Assembly (NCBI GenBank): GCA_028709085.1
Contig: JAQVXQ010000016.1
Span: forward strand, 1 to 35,040
Source: Salinivirgaceae bacterium
GTDB taxonomy: Bacteria > Bacteroidota > Bacteroidia > Bacteroidales > Salinivirgaceae
Direction: 5' to 3'
DNA length: 35,040 nucleotides
Positions 11,403 through 33,508 of this stretch are shown in pieces (position 1 is the first letter of the stretch; each line of letters begins with the position of its first letter). The notes beneath the pieces are model-generated. The model was not told the origin of the DNA and searched no databases. It saw only the letters and a list, made by a program, of their open reading frames with translations. Both the position numbers and the translations under genes were made by a program.

Positions 11403-12833
11403 ATGAAATTTACTCCGGAGAAGTATCGAATTGCGGACGAACGCATGAAACCATTCATCGATCCTGACGAAATTTGGGAATACATTAATGCTGCAAAACC
11501 AACACCCGAAACGGTTCAAAACATTATTAATAAATCCAAGAGCAAACAACGACTTAATTTACAAGAAGTTGCCACACTTATTGCTGCTGACGACGAGGAG
11601 TCGGTAAAAGCAATAAAAGCTGGTGCTCGATTTATAAAAACAAGCGTTTACGGAAACAGAATCGTTCTTTTCGCCCCTCTTTATATTGGCAATCATTGCA
11701 CCAACAACTGTACGTATTGTGGCTTTAGAACCGACAATAAAGATCAACAGAGAATGACACTGGAAGATCACGAAATTGTTAAAGAGGTGGAAGCTCTCGA
11801 AGATAATGGACAAAAACGTCTAATCTTAGTTTATGGTGAACACCCAAAATACAGCGCCGAATATATTGCCCATACAGTAAAAACCGTCTATGGCGTTAAG
11901 AAAGGAAATGGCGAAATCCGACGTGTGAACATAAATGCCGCTCCACTGGACATTGAGGGTTTTAAAACAGTTAAGGAATCAGGAATTGGGACATACCAAA
12001 TTTTCCAAGAAACATATCACCCCGAAGCTTATAAATGGTACCATTTAAGTGGAAAAAAGGCGGACTATAACTATCGATTAACCGGACTCGACCGTGCCCA
12101 AGAAGCAGGCGTTGACGATGTTGGAATTGGCGCTCTTTTTGGCTTATACGATTGGCGATTCGAAGTTATGGCATTAATAAGACATACAAACCACTTGGAA
12201 GCATGCTATAATATTGGACCACACACCATTTCGTTTCCTAGAATTACCGATGCAAGCACTTCGCAGATAAAAAAACAATACATGGTTAATGATCACGATT
12301 TTGCACGGATTGTTGCCATTCTTCGACTTGCAGTTCCTTATACCGGGCTAATTCTAACGGCTCGCGAAAATGTGGCAGTACGAAACGAAGTTTTGGATTT
12401 TGGGGTGTCGCAAATCGATGGAGGAACAAAACTCGAACTTGGTAGTTATCACGAAACTAAAAATGAGACTCAAAACTTAAATCGTGAGCAATTTATGATC
12501 AACGACAATCGCTCGTTGAACGAAGTTATTGAAGAACTTATTGAAAAGGGAAACATCCCATCATTCTGTACTGCATGTTATCGACTCGGCCGAACCGGAG
12601 AACATTTCATGGAATTTTCAGTTCCTGGATTTATAAAAAGATATTGTACTCCAAATGCACTTTTGACCTTAGCGGAATATCTCCAAGATTACGCCCCAAA
12701 GGAGACATTTGATAAAGGTTGGAAATTAATTGAGAAAACATTAGAAACTGAATTAAAAGAGCAAAAAAACGTAGCGGAAATTAAAGACCGACTGGAACAA
12801 ATTAAAGCAGGAAAACGAGATCTCTATTTTTAA
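11403..12833 (+). CDS. hydG: [FeFe]-hydrogenase H-cluster maturase HydG (radical SAM tyrosine lyase)
   Basis: This 476-aa radical SAM enzyme cleaves tyrosine to p-cresol and dehydroglycine, and forms the CO and CN- ligands of the H-cluster as an Fe(CO)2(CN) synthon. The SAM cluster motif is CTNNCTYC (Cys99, Cys103, Cys106). The second, HydG-specific cluster is in the C-terminus: CTAC (Cys389, Cys392) and Cys415, an exact CX2CX22C. That motif and the length separate it from ThiH, which lacks it. It is co-transcribed with the TM1266-like gene and ends at a strong hairpin. Its client hydrogenase is encoded at 25369-27144. The partner maturases HydE and HydF are not in this window. Confidence 0.95.
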   Translation: MKFTPEKYRIADERMKPFIDPDEIWEYINAAKPTPETVQNIINKSKSKQRLNLQEVATLIAADDEESVKAIKAGARFIKTSVYGNRIVLFAPLYIGNHCTNNCTYCGFRTDNKDQQRMTLEDHEIVKEVEALEDNGQKRLILVYGEHPKYSAEYIAHTVKTVYGVKKGNGEIRRVNINAAPLDIEGFKTVKESGIGTYQIFQETYHPEAYKWYHLSGKKADYNYRLTGLDRAQEAGVDDVGIGALFGLYDWRFEVMALIRHTNHLEACYNIGPHTISFPRITDASTSQIKKQYMVNDHDFARIVAILRLAVPYTGLILTARENVAVRNEVLDFGVSQIDGGTKLELGSYHETKNETQNLNREQFMINDNRSLNEVIEELIEKGNIPSFCTACYRLGRTGEHFMEFSVPGFIKRYCTPNALLTLAEYLQDYAPKETFDKGWKLIEKTLETELKEQKNVAEIKDRLEQIKAGKRDLYF

Positions 12834-24847: not shown

Positions 24848-25339
24848 TTATCCTTCGTATCCGTATTCCTCAAGAATTTTACGAACTTGATCTGATGAAA
24901 CACGACCATAGGTTTTCTCACCAACCAACACTACGGGAGCAAGACCACAAGCTCCAACGCAACGTAAGCAATTAAGTGAAAAGACACCATCAGCGGCTGT
25001 TTCTCCAACCTCAAGTTTTAAAAGTCTTTTGAATTCATCCAATACTTTTTCTGCACCACGCACATAACAAGCAGTACCAGTACATACTGATATTGGGTAT
25101 TTTCCACGTGGAATCATAGTGAAATACGAGTAGAATGTTACAACGCCATATACTTTGGCAAGTGCGACATTCAATTCGCTGGCAATAACTTCTTGTACTT
25201 CAGCTGGCAAATATCCAAAGATATTTTGAGCTCTATGTAGCACGTTGATTAACTCACCGGGTTTATTGTTGAACTCACGGCACACTTCAACGAGCTTTTC
25301 TTTATCAGCGCGTTTAAGCGCAACTTTTGATTCAGCCAT
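24848..25339 (-). CDS. hydC: [FeFe]-hydrogenase subunit HydC (NuoE-like, HndA-type)
   Basis: This 163-aa subunit is of the NuoE/24-kDa family, with a helical N-terminal region (about 10-75) and a thioredoxin-like [2Fe-2S] domain. The ligands are C-x4-C in VCTGTACYVRGA (Cys86, Cys91) and C-x3-C in LRCVGACGLAPV (Cys127, Cys131). In trimeric hydrogenases this subunit passes electrons within the NAD(P)H module. It is the last gene of the operon, 29 nt after hydA, and is followed by a perfect terminator. The cluster ligands are complete. Confidence 0.93.
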   Translation of the reverse strand: MAESKVALKRADKEKLVEVCREFNNKPGELINVLHRAQNIFGYLPAEVQEVIASELNVALAKVYGVVTFYSYFTMIPRGKYPISVCTGTACYVRGAEKVLDEFKRLLKLEVGETAADGVFSLNCLRCVGACGLAPVVLVGEKTYGRVSSDQVRKILEEYGYEG

Positions 25340-25368: not shown

Positions 25369-27144
25369 TTACTCTATTGTTTTAATTACTGTTGCTTTAT
25401 CCACATAGTGCGTATGCAATAAATGGTGTGCTTTTTCGCTCATAGGATGACCTAAGAATTTCTCATAGAGTTCAATAATCATTGGGTTATCATGAGATTT
25501 TCGTATTGGTTTTTCAGCATCTTCGCGATACAAAGCAGCAGCACGTTTTTGGAGTATCTCTGAATGGCCATGGTGTAGAGGTTGACCTCCTCCACCAACG
25601 CATCCGCCAGGGCATGCCATTATTTCAATTGCATGATATTCTGATTTTCCAGCACGAATGTCTTCGAGTAGTTTACGAGCATTTCCTAAACCGTGAGCAA
25701 TACCAATTTTAAGTTCAAAACCATCAATATCAACACTAGCAGAACGGATACCTTCCATACCACGTAGCTGTTGGAAGTCAACCTTCTCTAACTTTTTCTT
25801 GGTAAATACTTCATATGCAGTACGAACTGCGGCTTCAATAACACCTCCTGTTGTACCAAAGATAACTCCTGCTCCTGTGGATTCTCCAAGTGGATTATCA
25901 AAATCTTCGTCTGGCATATTTCTAAGGTCCATGTTAGCCTCTTTAATAAGATGCGCTAATTCCCGAGTCGAAATTGAATAATCTACATCTGGATTACCGT
26001 CAGTTTTAAACTCTTCGCGTTGGCATTCATATTTCTTAGCAAGGCAAGGCATAATTGAAACAACAATCAAATCTTCTCGCTTCACGTTAATTTTGTCAGC
26101 GAAATATGTTTTGGCAATTGCTCCAAACATTTGCTGTGGAGAACGTGCAGTAGAAGGTATGTCAAGCATATCAGGATACTGCTGTTCAAAGAAGTTTACC
26201 CAACTTGGACAACATGAAGTTAGAATTGGTAGTTTTACCGGTTCGCCTTTCAAATGTTTTTCTAAACGTCCTAATAATTCGGTACCTTCTTCCATAATTG
26301 TTAAGTCGGCAGCAAAATCAGTGTCGAAAACATAGTCGAAGCCTAAACGACGTAGGGCTGCAACCATTTTCCCGGTAACTGATGTTCCTGCTGGATATCC
26401 AAACTCTTCACCAAGAGCAGCACGCACTGCAGGAGCAGTTTGTACAATCACTGTTTTCTTAGTATCAGAAAGAGCGCGGATAAGTTGTGGAGTATTATCC
26501 ACTTCTGCTAACGCACCTGTTGGACAAACAGCAACACACTGACCGCAATATGTACATGTCGATTTCACTAAATCCATTTCAAATGCTGGTGCAACTACGG
26601 ACATAAATCCGCGATTTACAGCATGCAATGCACCTACAGTTTGTACGTCATTACACATAGTTTCGCAACGACGACACATTACACATTTATCAAGGTCCCG
26701 AATAATTGATGGAGAATAATCAACTCTGTACGATGACATTTGAGAAATCTCCTCATTGTGAATTTTACGAACACCCATTTTAACTGCTAAGTCTTGCAAT
26801 TCACAATTTCCTGATTTAGGACAAACAAGACAATCTTTTGGGTGATCGGATAAAATAAATTCAAGTACTGTACGTCGAGCATTCAAAACACGCATTGTGT
26901 TTGTTCGAACAACCATTCCTTCAACTACGTCAGTAGAACATGAAGGGGCAAGGTTTCGACGACCTTCAACCTCAACGACACAAATTCGGCAACCTGCCGG
27001 TTTGTTTTCTATGTTCATGTGTTCTAAGTTCATGTAACATAGAACAGGTATTTCAATTCCTAGTTGATGAGCAGCTTTGTAAATTGTAGTACCAGCTGGA
27101 ACCTCAACCTGTTTGTTATCTATAATAAGTTTTACAAAATCCAT
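25369..27144 (-). CDS. hydA: [FeFe]-hydrogenase catalytic subunit HydA (HndD-type)
   Basis: This 591-aa subunit makes or oxidises H2 at the H-cluster. Domains in order are: a plant-type [2Fe-2S] (Cys36, 52, 55, 69); the His-ligated [4Fe-4S] HPKDCLVCPKSGNC (His101, Cys105, 108, 114); two [4Fe-4S] (Cys154, 157, 160, 164 and Cys197, 200, 203, 207); then the H-domain. All three H-cluster signatures are intact: TSCCPSW (proton-shuttle Cys311, ligand Cys312), MPCLAKK (Cys367) and MACPGGCVGGGGQP (Cys511, Cys515). With HydB and HydC it forms an NAD(P)-linked, probably electron-bifurcating hydrogenase. Length and domains are close to Desulfovibrio HndD. Unlike Thermotoga HydA it has no extra C-terminal [2Fe-2S] domain. 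A GGAGG sequence lies 9 nt before the ATG. Confidence 0.96.
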   Translation of the reverse strand: MDFVKLIIDNKQVEVPAGTTIYKAAHQLGIEIPVLCYMNLEHMNIENKPAGCRICVVEVEGRRNLAPSCSTDVVEGMVVRTNTMRVLNARRTVLEFILSDHPKDCLVCPKSGNCELQDLAVKMGVRKIHNEEISQMSSYRVDYSPSIIRDLDKCVMCRRCETMCNDVQTVGALHAVNRGFMSVVAPAFEMDLVKSTCTYCGQCVAVCPTGALAEVDNTPQLIRALSDTKKTVIVQTAPAVRAALGEEFGYPAGTSVTGKMVAALRRLGFDYVFDTDFAADLTIMEEGTELLGRLEKHLKGEPVKLPILTSCCPSWVNFFEQQYPDMLDIPSTARSPQQMFGAIAKTYFADKINVKREDLIVVSIMPCLAKKYECQREEFKTDGNPDVDYSISTRELAHLIKEANMDLRNMPDEDFDNPLGESTGAGVIFGTTGGVIEAAVRTAYEVFTKKKLEKVDFQQLRGMEGIRSASVDIDGFELKIGIAHGLGNARKLLEDIRAGKSEYHAIEIMACPGGCVGGGGQPLHHGHSEILQKRAAALYREDAEKPIRKSHDNPMIIELYEKFLGHPMSEKAHHLLHTHYVDKATVIKTIE

Positions 27145-27158: not shown

Positions 27159-28952
27159 CTATTGTATGAATATAGCGTTAAATTTACATTTTTCGATACA
27201 TGCTCCACACTTGATACATAATGATTGATCAATGAAATGAATGCCTTTACGTTCTCCAGTTATAGCTCCTACTGGACAAACACGTGCACATGCAGTACAA
27301 CCAACACAATTGTCGGGTTGAATAACATATTGCATCAGGCTCTTACAAACTCCTGCGCGACATTTTTTATCGTCAACGTGCTCAAGATATTCATCGTAAA
27401 AGTTATCTAGTGTAGAAAGTACGGGGTTTGGAGATGTTTGACCAAGTCCGCAAAGAGCAGTATCTTTAATAACTCGACTCATATTATCGAGCAATTCTAG
27501 GTCTTCGCGAGTTCCATTACCATTACAAATTTTCGTTAGAACTTCGTGCAGACGTTTGTTTCCAATTCGACATGGAGCACATTTTCCGCAAGACTCTTCT
27601 ACGGTAAATTCAAGATAGAATTTAGCTACAGAAACCATACAGTCGTCTTCGTCAACAACAATCATCCCTCCAGATCCCATCATAGAACCGGCAGCAATTA
27701 GTGTATCAAATTCAATGGGCGTATCTAAGTGTTTTGTAGTTAAGCAACCTCCTGAAGGACCTCCAGTTTGCACTGCTTTAAATTTCTTGCCATCTTTGAT
27801 ACCACCACCGATTTCGAAAATAACTTCACGAAGTGTAATTCCCATCGGTACTTCAATCAAACCAACGTTGTTTATTTTTCCAGCCAATGCAAATACTTTT
27901 GTACCCGGCGATTTCTCTGTTCCAATTGAACGGAACCAAGTAGCTCCTTTAATTAAAATTACAGGAATATTTGCAAATGTCTCAACGTTATTCACGTTGG
28001 TTGGTTTTCCCCAATATCCTGATTCAGCAGGGAACGGAGGTTTAACAGTAGGTTCGCCACGCTCTCCTTCCATTGAGTGTATAAGAGCCGTCTCTTCACC
28101 ACAAACAAATGCTCCAGCTCCAAAACGCAATTCTACGTCAAAATCGAATCCAGAACCCAAAATGTCTTTACCCAATAAACCCGATTCTCTTGCCTGTTTA
28201 ATGGCAACTTGTAGTCGTTTAATTGCCAAAGGATATTCGGCTCGAATATAAACTAAACCTTTTGTGGCAGCAGTAGCATACCCACAAATGGTCATTGCTT
28301 CAAGAATTGAGTGAGGGTCACCTTCAAGGATTGAACGGTCCATAAATGCACCTGGGTCGCCTTCGTCAGCATTACAAACTACATATTTTTGATCAGCATG
28401 GTTTTTACTGGCAATTTCCCATTTCAAACCTGTTGGGAATCCCCCGCCTCCACGACCGCGTAATCCTGAATCTTTAATGATTTTGATTACATCCTGAGGT
28501 TTCATTTCTGTTAAACAGCGTCCTAAGGCCTCGTATCCTTCACGTCCGATATACTCTTCGATGTTTTCTGGATCGATAAATCCACAGTTTCTCAAAGCAA
28601 TTCTTAATTGCTTACGATAGAATCCCATGTGTTTAGAGTCACTAACTTTCTCTTTTTTATCCGGATCAACAAAAAGTAATCGCTCTACTTTTCGTCCTTT
28701 AATAACATGTTCTGCTATTATTTCTTTAGTGTCTTCTGGTTTTACTTGAACGTAAAACGTGTTGTCGGGCATAATTTTCACAATAGGCCCTTTTTCGCAG
28801 AAACCAAAGCATCCAGTTTCAATAACTTGTACGGTATCGTTTAAGTTATTTTCGTCAATCTCTTTTTTGAGAGACTCCGTAATTGCAAGCCCTTGTGCAG
28901 CTCGACAACCGGTGCCGCCGCAAACCAGAATATGCATTGAATATTTTGCCAT
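27159..28952 (-). CDS. hydB: [FeFe]-hydrogenase subunit HydB (NuoF-like, HndC-type flavoprotein)
   Basis: This 597-aa NADH-binding flavoprotein subunit has, in order: a thioredoxin-like [2Fe-2S] domain (Cys11, Cys16, Cys48, Cys52); a NuoF core with the glycine-rich FMN/NAD loop GRGGGGFPTG (about 167-176) and the acidic ADEGDPGAFMDR segment; the [4Fe-4S] motif ESCGKCAPCRIG with a fourth Cys in TALCGLGQ; and a C-terminal 2x[4Fe-4S] ferredoxin (CVGCTACARVCP and CIKCGACIEKCK). It exchanges electrons with NAD(P)H and, in bifurcating enzymes, couples this to ferredoxin. It is 14 nt upstream of hydA. Its start has a GGAGG site 9 nt away. All cluster ligands are present. Confidence 0.95.
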   Translation of the reverse strand: MAKYSMHILVCGGTGCRAAQGLAITESLKKEIDENNLNDTVQVIETGCFGFCEKGPIVKIMPDNTFYVQVKPEDTKEIIAEHVIKGRKVERLLFVDPDKKEKVSDSKHMGFYRKQLRIALRNCGFIDPENIEEYIGREGYEALGRCLTEMKPQDVIKIIKDSGLRGRGGGGFPTGLKWEIASKNHADQKYVVCNADEGDPGAFMDRSILEGDPHSILEAMTICGYATAATKGLVYIRAEYPLAIKRLQVAIKQARESGLLGKDILGSGFDFDVELRFGAGAFVCGEETALIHSMEGERGEPTVKPPFPAESGYWGKPTNVNNVETFANIPVILIKGATWFRSIGTEKSPGTKVFALAGKINNVGLIEVPMGITLREVIFEIGGGIKDGKKFKAVQTGGPSGGCLTTKHLDTPIEFDTLIAAGSMMGSGGMIVVDEDDCMVSVAKFYLEFTVEESCGKCAPCRIGNKRLHEVLTKICNGNGTREDLELLDNMSRVIKDTALCGLGQTSPNPVLSTLDNFYDEYLEHVDDKKCRAGVCKSLMQYVIQPDNCVGCTACARVCPVGAITGERKGIHFIDQSLCIKCGACIEKCKFNAIFIQ

Positions 28953-28967: not shown

Positions 28968-29366
28968 TTATTTGTTGTCAATTTTGTCGTAGTTTTCAGG
29001 CAATATACCTTCAACTAATTCGCCATTTTTAATGTAAGATTCAATGATTTGGTCCGCTTTTTTCATGTCAACATTTCCAAATACAATTGGTTCTTTACCC
29101 GGAATAGTAACTTCGATAGTTGGTTCAGCGAAATTATACCCCATATCGCCTGTTTGTGTTACTACGCCTTCGATACTGCGTTTCTCAAGCTCATCAACAA
29201 AAAAGTTGAATACCTCTTTCGCTCCAGAAGCAATACCACTAGTGCCCATTCCTACTTTCACTTGCACCAAGTTTTCATAATTGTCGCCTTTTTCACGAAG
29301 ATGGACTTTTGATTGCAAGTCCTCCTTCATTTTGCGTAAATCAGCCAACGATTTTACTTTAGCCAT
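28968..29366 (-). CDS. HndB-like protein: cysteine-free thioredoxin-like ferredoxin fold
   Basis: This 132-aa protein resembles HndB and the N-terminal thioredoxin-like [2Fe-2S] domain of HydB. It has an N-terminal helix (SLADLRKMKEDLQSKVHLRE), then VKVGMGTSGIASGAKEVFNF, where ferredoxin homologues have C-x4-C, and TQTGDMGYNFAEPTIEV, where they have C-x3-C. All four ligand positions carry other residues, and the whole protein contains no cysteine, so it cannot hold the usual cluster. It lies 15 nt upstream of hydB, in the same operon. It is probably a structural or regulatory subunit of the hydrogenase rather than an electron carrier. The HndB assignment rests on fold pattern and gene order. 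Confidence 0.75.
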   Translation of the reverse strand: MAKVKSLADLRKMKEDLQSKVHLREKGDNYENLVQVKVGMGTSGIASGAKEVFNFFVDELEKRSIEGVVTQTGDMGYNFAEPTIEVTIPGKEPIVFGNVDMKKADQIIESYIKNGELVEGILPENYDKIDNK

Positions 29367-29394: not shown

Positions 29395-29940
29395 CTAATT
29401 ATTTAATATCTCGTTAATGTTCTCTTCAAACATTTCGCTTAAATATCTTATTATCTGAGGGTTGTCAATTGAAACTCCCTCTAATGCCTCTTTTATTTCT
29501 CGAGTGTCGATTACTACCGTTCTGTCTCGAATTATATGTGTATACAGAAAATCCACTTCCGCATTTCCTGTAATGAGTATTGTTAAAACCCCCGCTAAAT
29601 CACCATTGGGAGGTCTATCAATATTATTGTATTCAAAAGTCACCTTTATATTCGTTCCTTTCCCCTCTTCAGAGGTTATAATTAAAGTTCCTCCTGTATG
29701 TTCAGCATTCTGTTTCAACAAAGGAATTCCCATTCCAACTTTTCGTGTAGTGCGTGTCGTGTAAAATGGATCTGTAACTCGCTGTACCACTTCGGGCGAC
29801 ATTCCTCTACCATTGTCTATAATGTTTAATTCATAGATATTTGCATCAATTTGTTCGTCGATTGTGATTTCAATAAACGTCGCTTTTGCGCTTATTGAAT
29901 TATTAACGACGTCTAAAATATGCAATGCTATATCTTTCAT
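29395..29940 (-). CDS. HATPase-domain protein (histidine-kinase-like ATPase, no phosphoacceptor domain)
   Basis: This 181-aa protein has a GHKL ATPase domain at the very N-terminus: N-box LDVVNNSISAKA (Asn13-14), G1 box IIDNGRGM (Asp42), DPFYTTR (about 57-63) and G2 box VGMGIPLL (about 68-75). There is no dimerisation/histidine phosphotransfer domain or sensor. The last 60 residues (about 118-181) form a separate small region I do not recognise. It lies 2 nt after the PHP gene and 28 nt before the HndB-like gene. A stand-alone GHKL ATPase could phosphorylate a partner protein (Ser/Thr or His) or act as an anti-factor. In this operon its partner is probably another encoded protein (inference). 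Confidence 0.8.
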   Translation of the reverse strand: MKDIALHILDVVNNSISAKATFIEITIDEQIDANIYELNIIDNGRGMSPEVVQRVTDPFYTTRTTRKVGMGIPLLKQNAEHTGGTLIITSEEGKGTNIKVTFEYNNIDRPPNGDLAGVLTILITGNAEVDFLYTHIIRDRTVVIDTREIKEALEGVSIDNPQIIRYLSEMFEENINEILNN

Positions 29941-29942
29941 TT

Positions 29943-30695
29943 TTATGCTTTTGTGCCGTAAGACACTATTTTCCTATTATTTTTACCTTGAAACGCATCA
30001 ACAATTTCATCTAACCTAGGATTATTGAGTTCAAATATGGTATAAATATCTCCTATATTATCAATAAAGTGGGCATCGGAGTTTTGCACATATGTGTATT
30101 TTGAATAGTGAGGATTTGTTGTTGTAAACTTCTCTGGATCTGTGAATTTCGACAATTCTAAGGCGTCAATTTTTAAATCAAGGGGAATAAAGCCAAGCTG
30201 ACTAATAATTGAATTCTTTGTTTTATTGATGTGTGCGGGGATAAAAACACCGCCTAGTTCATGAACTTTTTGTTCTACCTCTTCGATAGATGCATTTAAT
30301 CCATTTATTAACAGTGTTTCAATCTCTTCTAATATATTATCGTTTTCATCGACCACAACTTGATAACCAAAATAATCAACATTGTTTTGAAAAAATGGAA
30401 GGTTGGCCTCTAAGTAGGCTTGAAAAACATCTACTTGTTCAAAATTATGAAAGTATGCCAAACAATGAACCTCCTCTTTGGTAGTAACCTCTACTCCGGG
30501 TATTACCGTAATGCCATATTGGGATGCTACCTTTTGAACAACTTTACACATTTTGGTACTATTATGATCTGTTATGGCAATGATATCTAATTTATTATCT
30601 AAAGCAGCTTGCACAATATTCTTTGGGCTCATCTCTAAGTCTCCACATGGAGATAAAACAGAATGAATGTGCATATCAGCTTTAAATAGTGCCAT
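29943..30695 (-). CDS. PHP-domain phosphoesterase
   Basis: This 250-aa metal-dependent phosphoesterase of the polymerase and histidinol phosphatase family has its metal ligands visible: DMHIHSVLSPCGD (His9, His11), AITDHNS (Asp43, His44), GVEVTT (Glu69), EEVHCLAYF (His77), FIPAHINK (His155) and NSDAHFIDN (Asp207, His209). All nine expected positions seem to be filled, so catalysis is likely. In the operon it sits between the DRTGG and HATPase genes with almost no spacing (0 and 2 nt). A role as the phosphatase opposing the ATPases is attractive but is inference. Other options are nucleotide or phosphosugar hydrolysis. Confidence 0.85.
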   Translation of the reverse strand: MALFKADMHIHSVLSPCGDLEMSPKNIVQAALDNKLDIIAITDHNSTKMCKVVQKVASQYGITVIPGVEVTTKEEVHCLAYFHNFEQVDVFQAYLEANLPFFQNNVDYFGYQVVVDENDNILEEIETLLINGLNASIEEVEQKVHELGGVFIPAHINKTKNSIISQLGFIPLDLKIDALELSKFTDPEKFTTTNPHYSKYTYVQNSDAHFIDNIGDIYTIFELNNPRLDEIVDAFQGKNNRKIVSYGTKA

Positions 30696-31028
30696 TTATT
30701 TCAATAAGTTAAATAATAACCCTGTAATCTCAAAGGTCGATTTGTCGGTTATAAGAACGGGGATCTCCTCACCTTCAGCTTGTTTAAGCAAGTCAGCATC
30801 GGGTTTTAATCCTTGAACAATAATAATGGCTGCCAACTCTTTTAACGACGCAATTGCCATGACGTTTTTATGCGTTTGTAGTGTTATCCACACTTCACCT
30901 TCCGACGCCCTTCCCATAACATCACTCAACAAGTCAGAAACGTATCCGCCGGTAATTTCTCGATTTAATCCACTTTTGCCAGCTGCTATGGTAAGCCCTA
31001 AAGTGTTTACAATTTCCTGTACTTTCAT
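30696..31028 (-). CDS. DRTGG-domain protein
   Basis: This 110-aa protein consists of one DRTGG domain, named from a short conserved motif, here REITGGYVSDLLSDVMGRA (about 24-42). The rest alternates strands and helices (VWITLQTHKNVMAIASL, AAIIIVQGLKPD, IPVLITDKSTFEITGLLF). DRTGG domains are found next to CBS domains and in proteins near phosphotransacetylase and HPr kinase; ligand binding is suspected but the function is unknown. The stop directly abuts the PHP start (0-nt gap). A second, more degenerate copy is the first gene of the operon. Confidence 0.82.
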   Translation of the reverse strand: MKVQEIVNTLGLTIAAGKSGLNREITGGYVSDLLSDVMGRASEGEVWITLQTHKNVMAIASLKELAAIIIVQGLKPDADLLKQAEGEEIPVLITDKSTFEITGLLFNLLK

Positions 31029-31064: not shown

Positions 31065-32441
31065 TTATTTATCGTTATCTAAATCTTCTTCCACTTTATT
31101 AATTGAATAATCACCCCAAATATCTTTCATAATCTGAATTGACTTTATGTGTGTGAGTGATCCCGTATCTTCCATCTGTGATCTCATAAATACACAGTCA
31201 GTCAAACGGGCATTTTTTTGAACTATATCTTCGGATAGTGCTTGACATGTTGGTGCACCACAAACTCCACAGTCGATTCCTGGCAGGTAGGACAACATTT
31301 TTTGCGCTTTTTCTAACTTGTTAAGCGCAATGTTGGTATCCTCATCCATTTTCATCATCGAACGGGGTTCTATTTCTATGACGCGACATTTTTCCTTCAA
31401 ATAATCAGAATATTCCAACAGTGGGTTTTGCACTGGATTTTGAGTCAAAAACTCCTTATGTCGTCGAGCTCGTTTCTTCATTCTTTCAACGGTAATGAAA
31501 CGATTTGATACATTTAATATGCCTCCAGCACAACTTTCGTCACAGGCTCTTATTTCCACAAAATCGACATTGGTAATTTGATCGGTCTCTAATCTTTCAA
31601 GAAAATCGATGGCATTGTGTACCTCATCGATTGCTAAACATCGCCCATCGAATCGATCTGCTTCGCCATTGGTTAGCGACCATCGGATGGAAGTGTGTCG
31701 TAAGGTGGGTTCTTCAATTTTTTCTGTGTCCAGCGGTGTATGGTTTTTCAACAATAATAAGACTCGATTATAAATTAAATCGATATTAATAACTCCATCC
31801 ACCGATGAGTGCTCTTCGCCTACAGGGCTTTTCACTGCTGCAATTTTAGCGGCGCAGGGTGTTATGTAAAATATTCCGATATCTTTGGGATCAACTCCCT
31901 GATCCTCAAGTTTTTTGCGATAATATAGGGCGGAAACATCCAATGGTGGTTTGCGAGTAATAATATTCTGAACCAGAGATGGAAATTTCACTTGGATTAA
32001 TCGAACAATAGCGGGGCAAAATGATGAGATAAGCGGTTTAGTATCGCTGTGCTCTTTCATGTACTCTTTAACGTCATCGACAAGGAAATCGGCACCATGC
32101 TCAACCTCAAAAACATCGGTAAATCCAAGTTCATGGAGACATGCTATTATTTGTTTAATGCTAAATTCGCTATCAAATTGACCTGGAAGAGTGCTTGGAT
32201 ACAGGGCTACTCTATGTTTGTAATTAAAGATCGTGCTGAAATCATCTTGTTCTACTTTAATGGCTTGAACTGGACAAACTTTAAAGCACATTCCACAATC
32301 AATACATTTATGTTCATAAATAATTGCTTTTCCATTGCGCACACGAATCGCTTCAGTTGGACACACTGTCATGCAATGTGTACATCCGTAACATAAGTCG
32401 TTATCAACTTTTAATGCGTGATGAAAAGCTTTTTGTGTCAT
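31065..32441 (-). CDS. Sensory-type [FeFe]-hydrogenase (HydS-like, group C/D) with RnfB-type Fe-S tail
   Basis: This 458-aa protein has three parts. First is an N-terminal 2x[4Fe-4S] ferredoxin (Cys17, 20, 23, 27 and Cys46, 49, 52, 56). Second is an H-domain (about 75-345) with all four cluster-binding cysteines: SSFCPA (Cys142), TPCAAK (Cys196) and ACDESCAGG (Cys300, Cys304). Third is a C-terminal [4Fe-4S] motif CGVCGAPTC plus a distal Cys (Cys391, 394, 399, 416), as in RnfB. In the first H-motif the proton-shuttle cysteine is Phe141 (TSCCP becomes SSFCP). The MPC motif reads TPC and the GGG loop is lost. Such changes mark sensory hydrogenases with low turnover. No PAS domain is present. It overlaps the RsbT-like gene by 1 nt, which ties it to the signalling proteins. 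Confidence 0.85.
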   Translation of the reverse strand: MTQKAFHHALKVDNDLCYGCTHCMTVCPTEAIRVRNGKAIIYEHKCIDCGMCFKVCPVQAIKVEQDDFSTIFNYKHRVALYPSTLPGQFDSEFSIKQIIACLHELGFTDVFEVEHGADFLVDDVKEYMKEHSDTKPLISSFCPAIVRLIQVKFPSLVQNIITRKPPLDVSALYYRKKLEDQGVDPKDIGIFYITPCAAKIAAVKSPVGEEHSSVDGVINIDLIYNRVLLLLKNHTPLDTEKIEEPTLRHTSIRWSLTNGEADRFDGRCLAIDEVHNAIDFLERLETDQITNVDFVEIRACDESCAGGILNVSNRFITVERMKKRARRHKEFLTQNPVQNPLLEYSDYLKEKCRVIEIEPRSMMKMDEDTNIALNKLEKAQKMLSYLPGIDCGVCGAPTCQALSEDIVQKNARLTDCVFMRSQMEDTGSLTHIKSIQIMKDIWGDYSINKVEEDLDNDK

Positions 32442-32863
32442 TAGATACTTGAAATTAAATAGTTTACAAATCTCAATGAAGTTCCTTTATTTACTTCACT
32501 TTCAATCTGCATCTCATCGGTATTTCTTTTAATATTTGGCAATCCCATACCTGCACCAAATCCCATTTCACGAACGGCGGGGCTTGCTGTTGAAAAGCCC
32601 TCTTCCATGGCTAAATCAATATTTTGTATGCCTGGACCTTTATCAATAACATCAATCTCTATTTTTTCAGGTGTTATATTAACCATAACTTTCCCTAAAA
32701 AAGCATGGGCACAAACATTTATTTCTGCTTCATACAATGCAACTACAATGCGTTTAATAATTTTAGCATCCACATTTATCTGCTTCAAAACCTTTTTTAC
32801 ATTGCTTGAAGCAGTGCCTGCGTTGGCAAAATCACCTCCTTGTATTTTATATTCAAATTGCAT
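32441..32863 (-). CDS. RsbT/RsbW-like ATPase (anti-sigma-type Ser/Thr kinase)
   Basis: This 140-aa stand-alone GHKL ATPase is of the RsbT/RsbW/SpoIIAB type. It has VVALYEAEINVCAHA (Glu45-47, Asn49, His53), G1 box VIDKGPGIQ (about 72-80), and G2 box MGFGAGMGLPN with a following helix (about 100-112). Family members phosphorylate an STAS-type antagonist or bind a sigma factor. No STAS protein or sigma factor is encoded in the window, so the DRTGG proteins or the hydrogenase may be its partners (inference). It overlaps both neighbours by one base (TAATG at each junction), indicating tight translational coupling with the DRTGG-like gene and the sensory hydrogenase. Confidence 0.85.
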   Translation of the reverse strand: MQFEYKIQGGDFANAGTASSNVKKVLKQINVDAKIIKRIVVALYEAEINVCAHAFLGKVMVNITPEKIEIDVIDKGPGIQNIDLAMEEGFSTASPAVREMGFGAGMGLPNIKRNTDEMQIESEVNKGTSLRFVNYLISSI

Positions 32864-33207
32864 TAATATAAAGCTTTAAGTCCGGCATTAAATAAAATTC
32901 CGGATGTTTTAAACATAGTGAAATCGCACTCAATGAGTGTCATTTTGTTCTCAATTGCTAGTTGAACCATATCTTCAGTAGCTTTTTTGCCCCGAACAAC
33001 AATTATACATGATATATCGGACATTTCAGCGGTACGAATAGCTTGAAGATTTGCTAAACCAGTAATTAGTATTAAACTATCCGTATCTATTGTAAGTACA
33101 TCACTCATTAAGTCGGATGCAAATGCAAACTCATAATCCATATCTTCACCGGCTTCACCCGCAATTATTCGAGCATTTAATAATTTAGCGATCTCTTTTT
33201 GATTCAT
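32863..33207 (-). CDS. Degenerate DRTGG-like protein, first gene of the hydrogenase operon
   Basis: This 114-aa protein is paralogous to the DRTGG protein at 30696-31028. FAFASDLMSDVL aligns with ITGGYVSDLLSDVM, then ILITGLANLQAIRTAE, CIIVVRGKK, and MTLIECDFTMFKTSGILFNA. The GG of the signature is replaced (EFAFAS instead of ITGGYVS), so it may have lost ligand binding. I start at ATG 33207; the frame extends to 33264, but those 19 residues lie on the predicted promoter. It overlaps the RsbT-like gene by 1 nt. It probably works with its partner ATPase, but no function is established. Confidence 0.72.
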   Translation of the reverse strand: MNQKEIAKLLNARIIAGEAGEDMDYEFAFASDLMSDVLTIDTDSLILITGLANLQAIRTAEMSDISCIIVVRGKKATEDMVQLAIENKMTLIECDFTMFKTSGILFNAGLKALY

Positions 33208-33261
33208 AGAAGTGTGTTCATCATACTTTTTAAAACAATACTGCTGTCCGATTGAGGACAA

Positions 33262-33269
33262 CAAAGATA
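33262..33269 (-). promoter_or_regulatory. -7 box of the hydrogenase operon
   Basis: TATCTTTG on the minus strand matches TAnnTTTG. It lies 54 nt before the first ATG and is the same octamer as before the TM1266-like regulator/hydG pair. No TTG is seen at the -33 position, which suits a promoter needing an activator. Confidence 0.55.
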
Positions 33270-33352: not shown

Positions 33353-33368
33353 TGTGAATTATCTCACA
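33353..33368. promoter_or_regulatory. CRP-like operator 1 upstream of the hydrogenase operon
   Basis: TGTGA-ATTATC-TCACA is an exact match to the CRP-type consensus TGTGA-N6-TCACA. It lies about 105 bp upstream of the predicted transcription start on the minus strand. A second palindrome (TCACAC-N6-GTGTGA, 33364-33381) overlaps its right half. Confidence 0.6.
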
Positions 33369-33492: not shown

Positions 33493-33508
33493 AGTGAATT
33501 ATTTCACA
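33493..33508. promoter_or_regulatory. CRP-like operator 2 upstream of the hydrogenase operon
   Basis: AGTGA-ATTATT-TCACA repeats operator 1 with one change in the half-site. The 19-bp context GTGAATTATYTCACACCCT is shared by both copies, 140 bp apart in the same orientation. The rest of the 485-bp gap (33208-33692) is AT-rich; it holds the -7 box and a terminator at 33617-33646. Confidence 0.55.

Follow-up and report, generated by a model that had tools for sequence, protein, structure and literature searches.

A putative hydrogen sensor of group D [FeFe] hydrogenase anatomy, with a fixed aromatic residue at the proton-shuttle position, in the Bacteroidales

The HydS gene and its homologues

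What role might an [FeFe] hydrogenase-like protein have if it carries phenylalanine where catalytic enzymes carry the proton-shuttle cysteine, and if its own operon also encodes a hydrogenase that retains that cysteine? The question is raised by an open reading frame at 31065..32441 of the window, by which we mean the whole stretch of 35,040 nucleotides that was analyzed (features are on the minus strand unless marked otherwise). It encodes a protein of 458 amino acids, the Bacteroidales form of HydS, a group D [FeFe] hydrogenase already known as a putative hydrogen sensor. The protein matches the Pfam families Fe_hyd_lg_C (99 bits), FeS PF04060 (44 bits) and Fer4. In order, it contains two N-terminal [4Fe-4S] motifs found by motif and Pfam (Cys17-Cys56, 32274..32393), an [FeFe] hydrogenase H-domain, and a C-terminal PF04060 cluster motif. 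An AlphaFold2 model (pLDDT 90, pTM 0.88) was similar in fold to CpI and to the Desulfovibrio desulfuricans hydrogenase DdHydAB, with Z scores of about 30 across some 340-365 residues. RnfB was considered as a nearer relative and rejected, the similarity being confined to ferredoxin-type and PF04060 regions.

All four cysteine ligands of the H-cluster are present, as the earlier note had proposed: Cys142 (32016..32018), which is cysteine in 147 of 147 aligned rows, Cys196 (31854..31856), and Cys300 and Cys304 (31530..31544), the last three identified by sequence and alignment.

The homologues came from three sources: genomes related to the source genome, contigs of the GTDB collection, and plasmids. 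The main Bacteroidales clade comprises 143 HydS rows, which reduce to 86 representatives below 70% identity with a lowest pairwise identity of 36%. The 31 group C proteins used for comparison are from the same phylum and, in three cases, from plasmids of Clostridia. The scan of the contig collection returned relatives from the Bacteroidota alone, in a homologue set that is without the characterized Thermoanaerobacter mathranii enzyme TamHydS and without broad sampling of the Firmicutes, which are represented by a single group D-like protein (L116) from a plasmid record. Viral contigs searched with two queries contained no HydS relatives, and in the literature we found no experiment on any Bacteroidota HydS.

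The proton-shuttle position

HydS residues 139 to 143 are Ser, Ser, Phe, Cys and Pro. In the family alignment Phe141 (codon TTT, 32019..32021) falls opposite the shuttle cysteine of the TSCCP motif in HydA of the same operon, which corresponds to C299 of CpI and A137 of TamHydS. The original observation of phenylalanine at the shuttle position is thus borne out. No other cysteine aligns with this position, and no neighboring cysteine fits it.

Counting the residues here against groups C and D, as had been suggested, shows that the position is aromatic in all 143 main-clade proteins (125 Phe, 18 Tyr), in all 86 of the representatives (77 Phe, 9 Tyr) and in all 22 proteins of a second Bacteroidota clade described below (19 Phe, 3 Tyr). 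None of the 31 group C proteins has an aromatic residue; they have Pro (nine), Asp (five), Asn (four), Val (three), Cys (three), Ser (two), His (two), Ala (two) or Lys (one). The Firmicutes protein L116 has alanine, as do the Thermotoga maritima enzyme TmHydS (A131) and TamHydS (A137) (PMC10407848), and "sensory" sequences in HydDB have about 43% Ala, 17% Cys, 10% Pro and 10% Ser (PMC10055695). The earlier description of a bulky phenylalanine as unusual therefore holds against the published group C and D enzymes but not inside the clade, where it is the rule. The possibility that Phe141 is a sequencing or alignment error was rejected, the position being invariably aromatic in the clade. Judged from these alignments, the aromatic residue is a fixed trait of the branch and a true departure from the characterized enzymes, not a peculiarity of one gene. 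A search of running text for phenylalanine at this position (as C299F or C169F), with group D logo figures and supplements outside its scope, returned no report.

Among the PAS-type group C HydS proteins of Bacteroidota, the shuttle residue of L029, L031, L032, L033, L035, L203-L209, L211 and L212 is Asp or Pro. Aspartate is the one substitution reported to retain activity in prototypical enzymes (PMC10055695).

Group D anatomy and the proton path

By sequence, HydS has the anatomy of group D (M2e). It has the four H-cluster cysteines and Ser/Thr at the position of CpI M353, and it lacks both the shuttle cysteine and a PAS domain. The C-terminal PAS domain that marks group C is absent, the protein stopping 42 residues after Cys416, and Phe141 stands in place of the TSCCP cysteine of group A. 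In a phylogenetic tree the group D rows formed one cluster, separated from groups C and A with a support of 99, HydS grouping with L116, the sole Firmicutes group D-like row; the tree was made by a quick method, carries a long-branch warning for L116, and does not have TamHydS among its rows.

None of the five residues of the group A proton path (C299, E279, S319, E282 and R286) has a conserved equivalent in HydS. An alternative path, E252-E289-S249-D265, has been proposed for TamHydS (PMC10407848), and all four of its positions are kept in HydS, as E260, E296, T257 and D272. We paired the residues by alignment and by constant offsets from published residue names (PMC10407848, PMC11803613, PMC13104023, PMC8163306) rather than by aligning the TamHydS sequence itself; the same offsets pair D378/C379 with D390/C391, E392/D393 with E404/D405, and D403/C404 with D415/C416. 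Thr257 to Glu260 lie at 31662..31673, with T257 conserved in 137 of 143 main-clade rows and E260 in 143 of 143. Asp272 (31626..31628) is likewise found in 143 of 143, and Glu296 in 142 of 142. The claim that the normal proton path is blocked is thus correct for the group A path, which is missing, but every residue of the path proposed for group D is there.

Two residues frame the H-cluster pocket differently from HydA. When HydS is aligned with the operon's HydA, Thr194 (31860..31862; Thr in 140 of 143 rows), the counterpart of TamHydS S191, is opposite the methionine of IMPC (CpI M353), and Arg298 (31548..31556, together with Glu296; Arg in 141 of 142 rows) is opposite the methionine of EIMAC (CpI M497; TamHydS L291). 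Arginine at the Met497 position is more unusual than Phe141 and is the one departure beyond the phenylalanine from group D anatomy. This change and the conserved regulatory cassette described below were both missed by the earlier note.

One could suppose that HydS is a decaying pseudo-enzyme in which phenylalanine is one among several tolerated losses, and the absence of all five group A path residues agrees with this. The aromatic residue, E260, D272, R298 and all of the cysteines are, however, near-invariant down to 36% identity, and because near-invariance of this kind indicates purifying selection, the idea is largely refuted and we consider it very improbable. The description in the earlier note stands to this extent: HydS is a putative sensory hydrogenase whose H-cluster ligands are intact and which lacks the group A proton path.

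The C-terminal cluster

The C-terminal [4Fe-4S] motif, CX2CX4CX16C, consists of C391, C394, C399 and C416 (31194..31271; identified from the sequence and PF04060), with Asp390 directly before it. The suggestion that an RnfB-like motif here replaces the PAS domain of group C sensors fails. A Pfam search of HydS found no PAS domain, but groups C and D are described as sharing the motif (PMC8163306), and its four cysteines recur in the PAS-type group C rows of our alignment, although these rows were chosen partly by the first of the four, so that the motif count on its own is circular. The accompanying suggestion, that the signal leaves through the redox state of this cluster, is argued against by TamHydS, whose C-terminal cluster is still oxidized under 1 atm of H2 and in which replacement of one cysteine barely altered activity (PMC13104023). 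The live proposal is that H2-dependent changes in secondary structure carry the signal (cited in PMC13104023).

The operon and a possible mode of action

HydS is encoded in a run of ten same-direction genes between 33264 and 24848, in which neighbors are separated by small gaps or overlap slightly. The first encodes a DRTGG-like domain protein (32863..33264; PF07085 just under the cut-off, likely start ATG at 33207) and the second a GHKL ATPase of the SpoIIAB/RsbW kind (32441..32863; HATPase_c_2). HydS is followed by a DRTGG domain protein (30696..31028; profile match), a PHP domain phosphoesterase-like protein (29943..30695; Pfam) and a second GHKL ATPase (29395..29940; HATPase_c). The remaining four genes encode a 2Fe-2S-ferredoxin-like, HydD-like subunit (28968..29366; alignment), NuoF-like HydB (27159..28952; profile match), the group A6 [FeFe] hydrogenase HydA with TSCCP (25369..27144; NF040763, 912 bits) and NuoE-like HydC (24848..25339; profile match). 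The HydD-like protein of the window has no cysteines; among its relatives, 56 of 78 rows have three and some have one or none.

Of 54 loci whose flanks are complete, about 50 share this order. The first DRTGG gene, the first ATPase gene and hydS are present in all 54, the second DRTGG, PHP and second ATPase genes in 53, hydB and hydA in 51, the ferredoxin-like gene in 49 and hydC in 43. An [FeFe] HydA adjoins main-clade HydS in 51 of the 53 operons with a readable partner. No PAS, response regulator or STAS partner adjoins the HydS gene; STAS proteins are encoded in the genome, none of them near the HydS operon.

Alternatively, HydS might not be a sensor but a partner of HydABC that catalyzes slowly or loads electrons, for instance as an accessory point of electron entry. 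It shares an operon with HydABC, its N-terminal clusters are like those of catalytic enzymes, and TamHydS has a slow, reversible H2 turnover (PMC8163306). We nevertheless think such a role distinctly unlikely, given that the gene lies inside the ATPase/DRTGG/PHP cassette and that in Parabacteroides distasonis (L117, 5209-8980) the cassette occurs without adjacent hydABC. There the order is an upstream small protein, ATPase, HydS (with SSFCP), DRTGG, PHP and ATPase. The HydS homologue of P. distasonis has the accession WP_008779889.1.

We favor the reading that HydS is probably a slow [FeFe] hydrogenase of group D (M2e), most likely serving as an H2 sensor and not as a bulk catalyst. Residues, conservation and operon are observations, to which the following scheme adds H2 sensing, partner contacts and an output that we infer. 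The cubane of the H-cluster would be held by C142, C196, C300 and C304, ligands that are seen in the protein, and the [2Fe] part would be supplied by HydEFG. Phe141, replacing the group A shuttle cysteine, may pack on the azadithiolate bridge and close the group A route, while protons would travel through E260, E296, T257 and D272, as proposed for TamHydS. Binding of H2 would alter the protein's shape along with the redox state of the H-cluster and the N-terminal clusters, changes of the kind reported for TamHydS. The conformational signal might then be read by the SpoIIAB/RsbW-like ATPase and the DRTGG, PHP and ATPase proteins encoded on either side, which could tune the operon's bifurcating HydABC, either its expression or its activity.

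Maturases and a second clade

The H-cluster maturase HydG is encoded in the window (11403..12833, plus strand; 500 bits against a cut-off of 312), and HydE is present elsewhere in the source genome. No HydF above the cut-off was found in the source assembly (G000); this is probably an assembly gap, and two congeneric genomes do have HydF.

The second Bacteroidota clade (L183-L202, L139 and L140) has 22 members, two in the Bacteroidales and twenty in another class of the phylum. These proteins keep the DRTGG/ATPase cassette and the aromatic shuttle residue, and most of them retain the four H-cluster cysteines and the K358 equivalent. E260 (replaced by Gln, Leu, Ile or Val) and D272 are lost in all 22, and the second cysteine of the first N-terminal motif is lost in 20. 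Their flanks (L213-L221, L224, L250-L261) were sufficient at 19 loci, three at contig ends (L259-L261) not being counted. HdrA-fused BfuA-like and [NiFe] subunits adjoin 15 of the 19 (L213-L215, L220, L221, L224, L250-L258), and a NuoG-like BfuA with NfnA/NfnB-like genes adjoins the other four (L216-L219). HydG was above the cut-off in none of the 20 non-Bacteroidales genomes, one of which gave a sub-threshold match; the same search was positive in both Bacteroidales members of the clade and in three main-clade controls. HydF was found in none of the three non-Bacteroidales genomes searched for it. In two of the proteins, L199 and L202, both beside NuoG/Nfn-type operons, histidine replaces the C300 ligand.

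These observations bear on the main rival to our reading, in which HydS is a redox sensor that has Fe-S clusters but lacks the [2Fe] subsite. On this view the diiron unit would not fit beside Phe141 and Arg298, and the protein would sense the ferredoxin/NADH redox state for the bifurcating complex through its cubane and accessory clusters alone. Homologues with the same aromatic residue and the same cassette do occur beside [NiFe]/HdrA or NuoG/Nfn genes in genomes where HydG (0/20) or HydF (0/3) was not detected, and the two with histidine lack even the C300 ligand. Since the aromatic residue and intact cysteines persist in genomes mostly without detected HydG, neither proves a [2Fe] subsite or an H-cluster, and the same holds for the K358 equivalent with the four cysteines as evidence of an H-cluster in the HydS of the window. 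On the other side, E260 and D272 are kept in 143 of 143 main-clade proteins and lost in 22 of 22 of the second clade, thus tracking the [FeFe] operons, an association between related sequences in few lineages that amounts to few independent events and is not proof. Their near-invariance in company with [FeFe] HydA, together with their loss in the second clade, favors a functional proton route in the main clade, and HydA adjoins HydS there in nearly every readable operon. We consider the redox-sensor explanation unlikely for the HydS of the window.

A broader proposal, which we hold tentatively, is that HydS may be one module of a general regulatory cassette for NADH-linked bifurcating complexes, the cassette comprising two DRTGG proteins, the SpoIIAB-like ATPase, the PHP protein and the second ATPase. 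HydS could then sense H2 through an H-cluster in an aromatic/Arg pocket beside [FeFe] HydABC, and act as an Fe-S redox sensor lacking the [2Fe] subsite and the Glu and Asp of the proton path beside [NiFe]/HdrA and NuoG/Nfn complexes.

Comparison with known sensory hydrogenases

TamHydS (group D/M2e; PMC8163306, PMC10407848, PMC11803613, PMC13104023) resembles HydS in its domain order, its C-terminal cluster without PAS, the E252/E289/S249/D265 equivalents, a hydroxyl residue at the M353 position and the lack of the group A proton path. It differs in having Ala137 where HydS has phenylalanine, Leu291 where HydS has arginine, and a described AraC-type regulator where the Bacteroidota have the DRTGG, PHP and second ATPase cassette. 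TmHydS (group C/M2f; PMC10055695) shares the H-cluster cysteines, the loss of the shuttle cysteine (Ala131) and the CX2CX4CX16C motif, but has a PAS domain and Gly/Ser at the M353/M497 positions; the group C rows, unlike HydS, have no E252 equivalent. HydA of the operon has the same H-domain fold and cysteine ligands, but has TSCCP, methionine at both framing positions and no C-terminal cluster.

The published group D model is built on a single enzyme with alanine at the shuttle position. The Bacteroidota branch, with its fixed aromatic residue and arginine at the M497 position yet with the proposed proton path kept, provides natural variants for tests of that path. The second clade, mostly from genomes in which HydG was undetected, provides a natural control for asking which residues have a role in the H-cluster and whether every one of these "sensory hydrogenases" senses H2.

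The source genome contains two more HydS genes, of group C (C100 = L222 and C130 = L223), each followed by a SpoIIE-type phosphatase gene, giving three putative H2 sensors in total. Like HydS, these are putative sensors with a regulatory partner gene; unlike it, they are 578-633 amino acids long with a C-terminal extension, have Cys or Asn at the shuttle position, and have the SpoIIE-type partner.

The upstream region

No match to the Bacteroidetes-type promoter pattern was found near the operon, and the window as a whole matches that pattern no more than by chance. A palindrome, TGTKA-N6-TMACA, occurs in 63 of 96 distinct main-clade upstream regions (including those of loci L036-L115), usually as a pair 17 bp apart, compared with 0.15 expected in shuffles and none in 95 intragenic controls. 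It was found in none of 20 second-clade upstream regions. The window has an exact copy of this conserved motif, TGTGAGATAATTCACA, upstream of the operon (33353..33368) and a second, imperfect match, TGTGAAATAATTCACT (33493..33508). By its look the palindrome may be a Rex- or Crp-like site.
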